A DNA stretch of 64,000 nucleotides from Owenia fusiformis (lineage: Eukaryota > Annelida > Polychaeta > Sabellida > Oweniidae): assembly GCA_903813345.2 (NCBI GenBank), contig CAIIXF020000007.1:8747730-8811729 (forward strand), written 5' to 3'. Each line of letters starts with the position of its first letter. Positions within the stretch are counted from its first letter, which is position 1. Shown piece by piece: positions 34,982 to 46,381 of the stretch. The notes under the pieces are model-generated. The model did no database searches. It saw nothing but the letters and a program-made list of their open reading frames with translations, and was not told where the DNA came from. The position numbers were made by a program, and so were the translations under genes.

Positions 34982-37900
34982 ATGACTTCGAATATAGATC
35001 GTTTAATTTACATGTGGAATATCAAAATGATATTCGTAATTTTCCTCATGTTTTTCACTGTTTCATATGCAGACGATTTAGAAGACAATTTCATACAGAA
35101 ACTGACTTCTGAGGACGAGTTCAAAACGTATATTAGTGATAACAATTATGTTTTTGTGGTGTTTGGTAAGTATTAAATTGTCCTAATTTTTATTTTTACT
35201 CAGAAACTGTAGTATAATGTCGTGTTCCCTTTTCAAAATCTCAATTTTTTGTCGACGTTCCCGAATCTCTTCGTACAAAACATCTACCTAAGATATTTTT
35301 TATTCCTATGATACATAAAATATGATATTTATGTAATATAGAAATATGTTTTCAGTTTTACCTAGATATCTGATATTAGATTGAAAAACATTAACATTAC
35401 CTCATGCTCAACAGTGGTTTTACTGTATTATTTGCAGCCTTTTCCCAACTGCCCCTTCCTGGTTCCTAGAATTAGCCAGTACCTCTCTCTCTGCAGTGTG
35501 TTCTAAAAATACCGATGCTTCTCTGTCCAGAGAGGGGAGTTTCTACAAGAGCCATTGTAAAATCTATCTTGAATTGGTGTTCACTTAATACATGCTGGTG
35601 TTCACTAGAGAGAGGGGTGTTCACTATGACAGGTTTAAATGTATCTATATTTACACATAAATCTATAAAATGATTCATGCCATATTTTAGTTAATATGCC
35701 ATTTCATATGTTTCATACAATTTTAGTTGACAGCTTTGACAGAAGTAAGAATTTCATGGATGTGTTCTTCGAGATATCTGGAGTGACGCAGGAGATTGAT
35801 GGGGTAAAGATGGCGCTGGTGAATCACACTGAGAATAAAGAGATATCGTCACTGTACAAAGTGTCACGTGTGAAGCCAGTGATCATGTTATTCAAAAACA
35901 AGAGGCCTCTTATATACCAACATACCAAAGCCGGTTAGTTTTTTGGACAATACAGGGCGTTCAAAACCAATTAAATTACTAGAATCCCGAGCATTTAACT
36001 CAGAACTATAATATTCTGGCTTTGAAGTTTGGTATACTTTTTTGTGGACACCCTGTTCAGCATATTGGCAATACAAGCATCTTCTATATATTTTTGATTT
36101 AAGCTCTGGACTCAGTGCAATGTGGACTGAACCATTCCTTAAAAAGGTGTTATTTCAAGACGAGAAGCGCAGTATCTAGGAGTTAACGCTCGAGTGGAAG
36201 GAATCAGCCACAATGCATCGAGTCTAGGGCTTAACTTATTTTGAGATATTTAAAATATTTTCTTGGGAATCACCTCAAAGATACCAAATTAATAAAAGGA
36301 CACATTTTCAATAAAACGTGTTGTCAAATTCCATTTCAATCAGTATAGTCAGGTTGTCACCTTAACAACCATTCAACGGACCTTGAGTGGGTTATTGGTC
36401 ATAATGTATAATTCAGTGCAGTTACAATATATTAAATACTGTGACCAATTACGGATTGGCTGGAATCGGACACACCTTGTCTAGCTATGTCTAAATTTGT
36501 CTGAATATCGGTTCATAGTATTCTATATATTCTGCGTCTATGCTCTTCTTGAAACGTAGGAAATAAAGAAACATGAACATTACTATCATATAATTGCTCT
36601 ATATTTTGACAGAGGAAAGAACAGCAGAATTACTCACCCAGTGGATCATTTCAAAGATGGGCAGAGCTGTAAAAACCATAAAATCTCCTAAATTAGCAAA
36701 ACTTATAACAGAACCAAACAGAATAAACGTCATTGGATTCTTTAGAGTAAGTCATTCTGTCACAACATAACTTATAATTTCTTTATAAGTTTATTTACTA
36801 ATTCAAGTAAGGATTTTTACTTATAAATAATACGTGTAGGCCTCCGTCTAATATATCTACATACAATTTTACATATACTCGTATAGACTATAGAACCATT
36901 TTGATACAATTCCAACGATTATCCGACACGGAGGTTCATTTTTTAATCGAGCAGGACACAAAATCGAAAGAATTCCAAAGCTTGGAGGACGCTGCTTTTG
37001 ACACGACTGACGTTGGATTCTACACAGTTCAAGATGAATCAATATGGCAAGAAAATGAGATACATCAAGACACCATTGTCCTTTACAACGCAGTAAGTGT
37101 TACCCTCTACTATATCACTCTCCATACTTTACTACTTTACGTAAACTAAAAGTATCATCTATAATAAAGTTTTAATTCTATATCTAGCAGTTCATTCTTG
37201 TACTCATCTTACGTATCACTTTGTCATTCATTCCCGATTATCATCTTGTATCATTTCGATGTTTGATGATTTTCCTCGATATATACTTTAGGAGAACAAA
37301 GAAAGTCATAAATTCAAAGGAGTGTATGATGCAGACAAGATTCAGAATTTCATTGCTGTGCACTCGCTAGATCTCCTTGAACATTGGAGCATGGAGGTCA
37401 GTAATACAACATGTCCAGAAATTCGTGTCACATGCAGCCAAGTGCAGTCACCCCAATAAGTGTTGCAAGTTAAGAAAGATTTCCTTTTTATAGGACAATT
37501 GTATATTGCAAGTGACAAGTTTTTGTAGACACCATGAATAAAAGCACAGAATAATGGAGGTCAAAACTACCACAAACCTGTCTTTAAGAATTATTTTGTT
37601 TTTACATGGACCTCTGGTTTTTGTAACGCATCAAGACAATCGAGCATTCCAAAGAAACACACCTATACCATATGTTTTTGTTCCAGACGAAAGACCTCTT
37701 CAAGCTAGATGTTGACTTTCTTGTAGCATTTTTTCCATTTGATATAAGGAAGATCACTGCAGTGAAGAAATTAGCAGAGGACTACAGAGGGTCGGTTGGT
37801 ACCTTACTTTAAAACCATTTAGAGTTTACTGTTTGTGACCTTGTGATAATTTATAATACCATTATTGCTTGACTATTTTGTGCACTTTCTGATTTTGTAT

Positions 37901-44900: not shown

Positions 44901-46381
44901 ATTATACCTTGCTTTTGTACTTTGTACAATATGGTTTAGATGTAAATATAAGTAAATTATTTCCAGCCACATAAAGTGAGCCAGGCAGTTCCAGATGGCT
45001 GGAATGATAAGCCGATGAAGACACTCGTGAGGGATACATTTATTGAGGTTATCGGTGATAAAACCAAAAGCAGATTTGTGGAGTTCTGTGAGTTTTCTTT
45101 TACACTATTTGCATAAGATATCACTGAATATATTCTTATACGATAAAGTACAACATTACAACAATTAGGATATATGATAAAGTACAACATTACAACAATT
45201 AGGAATTGGAGTTGAAATTTTGGTATTAAAGAGTCTCCAGCACAAGCCCAACAATACCCCTTCTGAAAAGAAGTTATTGCCTATTTGATGCCACGGTTAA
45301 AATTTAGTTATCAACACTTGAGTTTATTTTTATTTTTTATTATTTTTTTTTATTTCTCTATTCAAATATGACAAGTACATTAATTAAAACCAGTTCAGAT
45401 TTTCTTCACACCACCTCCATTCATTCAGACATTTGCAACAGTCATACTTTTAAGTTCTGGTACATATTCGTGTCAGACACAGAAATTGTACAGAAATTGT
45501 TCGAATAAATGTTTTCTAAAAGGCCCCGTTGGAATTTGTAAAACCATCCTTCAAAAACATTGTCACCCAAAATATGCTTCAAGATACATTATGGTTATTC
45601 AGGCACATACACTTATCATTTTCAAGTCAAACGAGTGATTCCATTTCTAATTTCGAAGATGCTCCTTGGTGTGGACATTGTAAGAAGCTCTCCCCGATTT
45701 GGCAAGAGTTAGCGGAAAAATATGAAGACAATAAAGACGTGGTGATCGGTGCCATAGATGCAACTAGTAATGATTTAGATATAAAGATTGGTGGATACCC
45801 AACTCTTCAATTCTACCCAAAAGGCGCAGATGAGGTTTGCATATTAGTATTATCTTTACATTTATTTCTTAAGTTGCCGGAGTACAATTCTATAAGTATG
45901 AAGGAGGGGACAGGAAGGAAATAAATAACGAATTCTTCCAATGCGAACATGACATAGATGACACATCTAGGTCGTTCGGGGGTACAGGAAACGTTCGTGC
46001 CTCGCTCTGTGGTATTTACTCGTCGATATGATACCTGCTGTCGATCTTTCAATTTCTTAAATCAATGCAATGTATTGTAATTACTACCCCATATAATATG
46101 TATATTGCAGCCTGTACAATTCGATGGAGAAAGAACCCTCGAAGGGCTTTCGTCATTTATAGAAAAATACGCAAAGGTAAATACTAGTAAACCAATCAAG
46201 CATAGAAAACTATGACTGATAACGGAGACATGTAATTAAAACATGAGTATTAGGCTTATAAAGTGGACGTTGACTTATAATTATTTTGTCTAAAATAAAC
46301 TGAAATATGCAAATTGTTTAAAGTAAATTGGATCAATGGCCATTTTTGTTCTACTTCCAGAGTGAAAAGGACGAGCTATAG
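41917..46381 (+). CDS. Protein disulfide isomerase with one redox site, copy 2 (KDEL tail)
   Basis: Eleven coding exons: 41917-42073, 42302-42508, 42685-42821, 43065-43202, 43377-43481, 44036-44149, 44382-44594, 44967-45087, 45659-45834, 46111-46176, 46361-46381; 484 residues. Exon number, phases and most lengths (207, 138, 105, 121, 176, 66, 21) equal those of copy 1 at 34982-41265, so the pair is a tandem duplication. Signal peptide to about A21. The first thioredoxin-like domain has KRSK (residues 57-60, in FFVDKSKRSKEF) where CGHC should be, but keeps SIPTMPG with the cis-proline. The a' domain has YAPWCGHCKKLSPIWQ (C402, C405) and GGYPTLQFYP. The C-terminus SEKDEL is the classic ER-retrieval signal. 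Exon 9 uses the acceptor TTTCGAAG, weaker than others but needed for the conserved phase. A poly(A) signal AATAAA is at 46440-46445. Confidence 0.9.

Follow-up and report, generated by a model that had tools for sequence, protein, structure and literature searches.

Tandem protein disulfide isomerase genes of the annelid Owenia fusiformis that lack the first redox site

The window analyzed in this study is a stretch of 64,000 nucleotides from the annelid Owenia fusiformis (GenBank assembly GCA_903813345.2, contig CAIIXF020000007.1, positions 8,747,730 to 8,811,729 of the forward strand). It carries two complete protein disulfide isomerase (PDI) genes in tandem, both on the plus strand, with gene 1 at 34982-41265 and gene 2 at 41917-46381 of the window. 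In both proteins the first of the two redox sites is gone. A redox cysteine pair is absent from the a domain of each copy (0/2), and the CGHC of the second catalytic domain, a', is kept in both copies (2/2). The a' CGHC supplies the only cysteines of gene 1, and gene 2 has a single further one, at residue 66. Across the whole window, CGHC-coding sites occur only twice, at 40551 and 45670, against 0.27 expected by chance, and both belong to a' domains. A first-pass annotation of the DNA had proposed that both a domains lost both redox cysteines, and on this point it was right.

Gene models and family placement

The gene models of both copies were predicted from DNA alone. Gene 1 has 11 exons and encodes 489 residues, gene 2 has 11 exons and encodes 484 residues, and they end in the endoplasmic reticulum (ER) retrieval signals KEEL and KDEL, respectively. 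Each protein begins with a hydrophobic leader, judged by eye only. All 20 introns of the pair have GT-AG borders, and both reading frames are intact. The two genes have the same exon phases, exon by exon, and equal lengths in 7 of the 11 exons; the stop codon of gene 1 lies 651 bp before the ATG of gene 2. Apart from the leader, which rests on inspection, these two full models uphold the earlier description of tandem PDIs with a P4HB-like domain order, ER signals, and CGHC in a'. The exons are as follows.

34982..35165, plus strand: gene 1 exon 1, leader and start of the a domain, ending ...VFVVF, phase 1
35727..35933, plus strand: gene 1 exon 2, a domain, VDSFDRSKNF in place of canonical YAPWCGHCKxL, one codon shorter
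36613..36746, plus strand: gene 1 exon 3
36955..37092, plus strand: gene 1 exon 4, b domain
37292..37396, plus strand: gene 1 exon 5
37687..37794, plus strand: gene 1 exon 6, b' domain
39550..39759, plus strand: gene 1 exon 7, b' domain
40227..40347, plus strand: gene 1 exon 8, linker and start of a'
40540..40715, plus strand: gene 1 exon 9, a' with CGHC at 40551-40562; AKxD lysine replaced by alanine (AAVD)
40955..41020, plus strand: gene 1 exon 10
41245..41265, plus strand: gene 1 exon 11, C-terminal KEEL and stop
41917..42073, plus strand: gene 2 exon 1, leader and start of the a domain, ending ...SLVFF, phase 1
42302..42508, plus strand: gene 2 exon 2, a domain, VDKSKRSKEFTPE in place of canonical YAPWCGHCKxLxPE, one codon shorter
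42685..42821, plus strand: gene 2 exon 3
43065..43202, plus strand: gene 2 exon 4, b domain
43377..43481, plus strand: gene 2 exon 5
44036..44149, plus strand: gene 2 exon 6, b' domain
44382..44594, plus strand: gene 2 exon 7, b' domain
44967..45087, plus strand: gene 2 exon 8, linker and start of a'
45659..45834, plus strand: gene 2 exon 9, a' with CGHC at 45670-45681; AKxD lysine replaced by alanine (GAID)
46111..46176, plus strand: gene 2 exon 10
46361..46381, plus strand: gene 2 exon 11, C-terminal KDEL and stop

Several comparisons place the two proteins in the PDI family. Alignment to human P4HB spans all four thioredoxin-fold domains, in the order a-b-b'-a', in both proteins. Pfam and NCBIfam models detect thioredoxin and PDI domains in the pair, and the a' domain scores above the cut-off of pdi_dom (TIGR01126) in gene 1 and in gene 2. 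The ER PDI family model TIGR01130 covers residues 35-480 of gene 2 and 87-481 of gene 1; its scores for the pair, 250 and 245 bits, lie under the 344-bit cut-off, as would fit divergent family members. The top-scoring solved relatives are PDI chains with human P4HB letters, for gene 2 as a whole and for the first 256 residues of gene 1. A canonical P4HB has CxxC in both a and a'; in each copy a is without a redox pair. Since a canonical P4HB gene with CGHC in both domains sits elsewhere in the genome, on C9, the pair are extra copies beside it, and they probably encode ER-lumen proteins of the a-b-b'-a' PDI family. Two divergent P4HB-like genes on C12 also enter the comparisons below. C12A reads CHHC in a and CQHC in a'; C12B reads CAQC in a' and has two alternative second exons, which encode CRDS or SNNS.

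Loss of the first redox site

The first-pass annotation had named a spliced alternative exon encoding CxxC as the finding that would overturn the loss, and none was found in the introns or the near flanks that were searched. On the plus strand, TGY-N6-TGY does not occur in intron 1 of gene 2 and occurs once in intron 1 of gene 1, at 35424-35435, where it encodes CIIC in an open frame; its surroundings are unlike those of a PDI, and none of the nine upstream AG sites gives an open, in-frame join to exon 1 (0/9). When every intron, the intergenic stretch, and the flanks 30000-34981 and 46382-52000 were searched by tblastn with eight PDI queries, no hit was better than E 0.15 and none had a motif. 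TGYN6TGYAAR sites number 15 in the window against 7.4 expected, a count that no shuffle reached; two of them are those of a', several fall within other introns, and intron 1 contains none in gene 1 or in gene 2. On the CGHC, TGYN6TGYAAR, TGY-N6-TGY, and tblastn searches, a hidden exon with a PDI-like CxxC was rejected for the DNA covered.

What replaced the lost site depends on the alignment register. The first-pass annotation set DRSK (gene 1) and KRSK (gene 2) on CGHC; these letters are indeed present, and the alignment is one residue off. That register was dropped after three placements, by phmmer against the Protein Data Bank (PDB), by MAFFT L-INS-i, and by a profile of canonical domains, all of which set R-S-K on the H-C-K of CGHC-K. 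Counted from the phase-1 intron up to and including the residue that follows the motif, both a domains of the pair have eight codons (V-D-S-F-D-R-S-K in gene 1 and V-D-K-S-K-R-S-K in gene 2). The same count is nine in nine other P4HB-type catalytic exons, which start Y/F-A-P-W-C-x-x-C-K or a variant of it: a and a' of the canonical P4HB, a and a' of C12A, both alternative exons (2a and 2b) and a' of C12B, and a' of gene 1 and of gene 2. A PDIA4-like gene was left out of this count, as its first two catalytic domains have the intron after APW. By alignment, RSK is a change of H to R, a change of C to S, and an inherited K at the Lys57 position. In an excerpt of PMC5835755, Lys57 and Lys401, which adjoin CxxC in human PDI, are described as highly conserved.

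The missing codon either encoded the first cysteine or stood ahead of it. For gene 1, phmmer and the profile drop the position at or next to the first cysteine, and MAFFT drops one further upstream; for gene 2, phmmer and the profile drop a residue further upstream, as does MAFFT. If the missing codon precedes the motif, gene 2 reads SKRS-K and gene 1 reads FDRS-K.

The pair has lost a second feature of PDI chemistry. None of its four catalytic domains has the lysine of the A/G-K-x-D motif: the a domains read ALVN and AWVD, and the a' domains read AAVD and GAID. The lysine is kept in all 14 catalytic domains of seven comparison proteins, among them the dead a domains of PDILT and C12B. These proteins are the canonical P4HB on C9, C12A, C12B with exon 2b, human P4HB, human PDILT, the worm's own PDIA4-like protein minus its first domain, and human PDIA3, whose letters were entered by hand. 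With the alternative exon 2a of C12B, which reads AMLD, the count becomes 14/15. Numbered on human letters, the lysines lost in the pair are Lys81 and Lys424, and PMC5835755, in the excerpt, implicates both in Lys-Glu salt bridges that enable proton transfer. In the alignment, the glutamate ahead of F-Y/F-A-P-W is still present in the a' domain of both genes. Because the lysine of this proton-passing Lys-Glu pair is gone, the surviving a' site would be altered, and probably slowed.

The history of the losses can be read from what the copies have in common. Gene 1 and gene 2 form a clade with support of 100/100, both in a tree on 338 columns without the a domain and in the full-length tree; together with the same exon phases, this substantiates the tandem duplication that had been proposed. 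Both copies have the one-codon deletion, H-to-R, and C-to-S, and both are without the AKxD lysine in a as well as in a'. Because these changes are common to the copies, a single loss of the a site ahead of the duplication, as the first-pass annotation suggested, is the simple and well supported reading of the sequences.

Constraint and competing explanations

The first-pass annotation further suggested that R-S-K was kept for a purpose, such as substrate or partner binding, and this was not borne out. Identity between the copies is 32% in a (35/110), 53% in b (53/100), 38% in b' (43/114), and 60% in the linker and a' (77/128). The canonical P4HB of the same genome is 66% identical to human P4HB in a (71/107), 55% in b (55/100), 51% in b' (60/117), and 75% in a' (91/121). 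Interaction tests of the pair against the canonical comparison gave z 3.36 and p 0.0008 for a against b and p 0.024 for a against b'; for a against a', the result was not significant (p 0.064). Of the four main domains, a differs most between the copies, which is not so in canonical P4HB; constraint on a thus fell relative to b and b'. Of the 68 columns of exon 2, 23 are identical, and a run of at least three identities appears in 89% of shuffles. The chance of agreement at the three named columns of this exon is 0.035, and it is 0.11 at two when the inherited K is set aside. The K occupies the ancestral Lys57 position, and Cys-to-Ser is a one-base change. RSK is therefore evidence neither for a selected surface nor against one, and mostly reflects inheritance and ordinary change. 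Synonymous sites between the copies are saturated (pS, the proportion of synonymous differences, 0.70-0.97), so the ratio of nonsynonymous to synonymous change (dN/dS) is unusable, at the motif as elsewhere. Random replacement at the site, which would have spoken against a kept motif, is seen between genes (SNNS and CRDS in C12B of the same genome) and not within the pair.

We favor, at a probability of roughly 0.55, a reading in which a P4HB-like gene first lost its first redox site and a tandem duplication then yielded two single-site, slow, ER thiol-dependent chaperones. In such proteins, b' would bind unfolded clients and a' would form or break one disulfide at a time, and the a domain would take no part in disulfide exchange, serving only as a structural or client-contact module. 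Without the lysine of the Lys-Glu pair, a' would be slower and would perhaps hold mixed disulfides longer, so that the pair would behave less like fast oxidases than like thiol-dependent chaperones. Several observations weigh against this reading. The identity of b' is low (38% between the copies and 20-25% to canonical P4HB), so that client binding is something we infer. The Pfam b-b' model Thioredoxin_6 matches gene 1, and no match was reported for gene 2. The a domain of gene 2, taken alone, matches human PDIA4 (3idv, E 4.6e-9) better than P4HB (1mek, E 6.5e-4). The arginine before the last a helix of canonical P4HB is lost in gene 2 and one is kept in gene 1, so the a domains differ. Finally, the lysine counts span seven proteins only, with PDIA3 entered by hand, and exon 2a of C12B is also without the lysine. 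A stronger version is tentative: the pair may stand for an annelid PDI subfamily in which removal of the first site, combined with an a' CGHC-K without its proton-relay lysine, made a slow-release, client-trapping PDI and not an oxidase, with clients retained as mixed disulfides at the single a' site.

The alternative that survives best, though we consider it doubtful, is relaxed constraint. The a site would have become dispensable after duplication from P4HB and decayed, without a new function for a, in a protein whose job needs b' and a' only. The protein could, for instance, partner other chains as the beta subunit in a prolyl 4-hydroxylase or in a lipid-transfer complex. P4HB itself serves as a subunit of both, and as a prolyl 4-hydroxylase subunit it tolerates loss of its redox sites. 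The low conservation of a between the copies fits this explanation, and the PDB matches of the pair include P4HB chains of entries such as 6i7s and 8eoj, which are multi-subunit complexes. However, neither a domain contains a stop or frameshift, and exon 2 is 207 nucleotides long in both copies despite the synonymous saturation, which indicates that a is still constrained to fold. Moreover, decay of a alone leaves the loss of the AKxD lysine in a' unexplained.

An ancient PDILT-like clade, in which the pair, C12B, and vertebrate PDILT descend from one old PDI whose first site was lost before the annelid-vertebrate split, is unlikely. The corrected register brings the motif closer to that of human PDILT, whose a site is SKQS-R (PDB 5xf7); in one gap placement gene 2 reads SKRS-K, and the earlier statement that no known PDI has such a motif is weakened to that extent. 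The full-length tree groups the four proteins at 41/52 and joins C12B with PDILT at 75/86, or at 86/88 when the pair is left out. However, none of these supports attains the starred level, and the branches of C12B and PDILT are both long. Once the a domain is removed the two part, PDILT grouping with human P4HB (30/8) and C12B moving towards the outgroup (31/39), and with C12B left out PDILT adjoins the outgroup and the pair adjoins C12A. PDILT is also without the codon deletion, and the change of E to M before FYAPW in a' is common to C12B and PDILT and absent from the pair. The approximately unbiased (AU) test gave p 0.25 without the a domain and 0.093 at full length for the pair with PDILT, a placement that is unstable when rows are left out, and p 0.34 and 0.29 for the four together; across trees, AU p for the pair's place among P4HB, PDILT, C12A, and C12B runs from 0.09 to 0.34. 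PDILT orthology of the pair was dropped as a firm claim, as the trees do not support it. Less probable still is convergence of the two copies on RSK after the duplication, which the differing residues before R-S (D versus K) and the chance agreement at exon 2 identity (p 0.035, or 0.11 without the inherited K) would allow, but against which stand the missing codon shared in the same short stretch and the absence of the AKxD lysine from both a and a' in both copies.

C12B is a case of its own. In common with human PDILT it has E-to-L in a and E-to-M in a' before the motifs, GKVD in a, and SxxS in a, and it is a candidate annelid relative of vertebrate PDILT, with weak tree support, long branches, and a join to PDILT that disappears once a is removed. 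C12A and C12B lie close together on the same strand at about 9.934-9.951 Mb of C12 (L003 and L005). Like the pair, they are divergent P4HB-like genes with altered sites; unlike the pair, they have normal codon spacing and the AKxD/GKxD lysine in both domains (in C12B via exon 2b, exon 2a reading AMLD). The two alternative second exons of C12B, at reverse-strand 5624-5836 and 5884-6090 of L005 (C12:9946400-9955900), are 213 and 207 nucleotides long and both in phase 1-1, and neither encodes CxxC. Taken together, these genes suggest that the a site was lost or altered either more than once or once anciently.

Further observations concern the other PDI genes and the surroundings of the pair. The canonical P4HB gene (L001, C9:26238600-26248500) has two tandem exon versions for part of b', at reverse-strand 6476-6601 and 6873-6998. 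Each version is 42 codons long and in phase 0 with AG/GT borders, and 18 of 42 residues are identical. They look mutually exclusive and would swap part of the client-binding domain; a literature search on this showed nothing among the papers listed. Among the 38 best genome matches listed for each protein of the pair, no other gene matches the a domain as a third copy would. A Thioredoxin_6 profile search of the genome returned 8 matches, 3 of them above cut-off, and led to an ERp44-like gene (L007) and a TMX3-like gene, both named by eye. The erythrocruorin linker family PF16915, known only from annelids, has three matches above cut-off in this genome. Intron 6 of gene 1 contains an inserted, transposon-like element at 38081-39042, with 227-nucleotide inverted arms that are 94% complementary, a nested inverted pair of 92 nucleotides, and a frame with a weak DDE_3 match below cut-off. 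Upstream of the pair, 30869-31993 holds an open frame of 374 residues that looks by eye like a membrane transporter and has no Pfam match at E 0.01.

Comparison with known systems

PDIs with asymmetric or missing sites are already known. An a-b-b'-a' PDI with a single site and no relay lysine at that site would be a naturally occurring experiment on the separate contributions of the a domains and the Lys-Glu pair. In the P4HB-like genes described here the a site was lost with differing letters and the a' cysteine pair was kept, which makes the proposition that a is dispensable and a' is not testable across annelids. In the open-licence literature, judged by search listings, we recognized no work on annelid or one-sited PDIs.

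The closest reference is canonical P4HB (PDIA1), with which the pair shares the a-b-b'-a' order, an ER retrieval signal, and CGHC-K in a'. Exon borders are also common to the pair and the canonical P4HB of the same genome, for example that of the phase-1 intron which directly precedes the motif in a and in a'. In the canonical protein, a carries CGHC and neither catalytic domain is without the AKxD lysine; the pair lacks both features, and its a domain is one codon shorter. Human P4HB carries an acidic C-terminal tail, and none is read before KEEL or KDEL in the pair. Cone snails have conotoxin-specific PDIs, which differ from the pair in that both redox sites are kept (CGHCKA and CGHCKQ).

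Another reference is PDILT (PDIA7), whose expression is testis-restricted. As presented in an excerpt of PMC12781119, it has the a-b-b'-a' order with both a-site cysteines gone (SKQS), as in the pair, and a KEEL end, as in gene 1. PDILT has lost the redox pair in a' too, where its first cysteine is gone (SKKC), and it keeps the AKxD/GKxD lysine in both domains; the pair differs on both counts, its a' CGHC being intact. ERp44 (PDIA10) offers a model for the use of slow or partial thiol chemistry to which the pair can be likened: the same excerpt describes an incomplete CRFS motif whose single cysteine makes mixed disulfides with clients. ERp44 has an a-b-b' order and lost a cysteine in its only a domain, whereas the pair has four domains and an a' with CGHC. 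On our best reading, the pair would resemble PDILT and ERp44 as a further variant of the PDI family.

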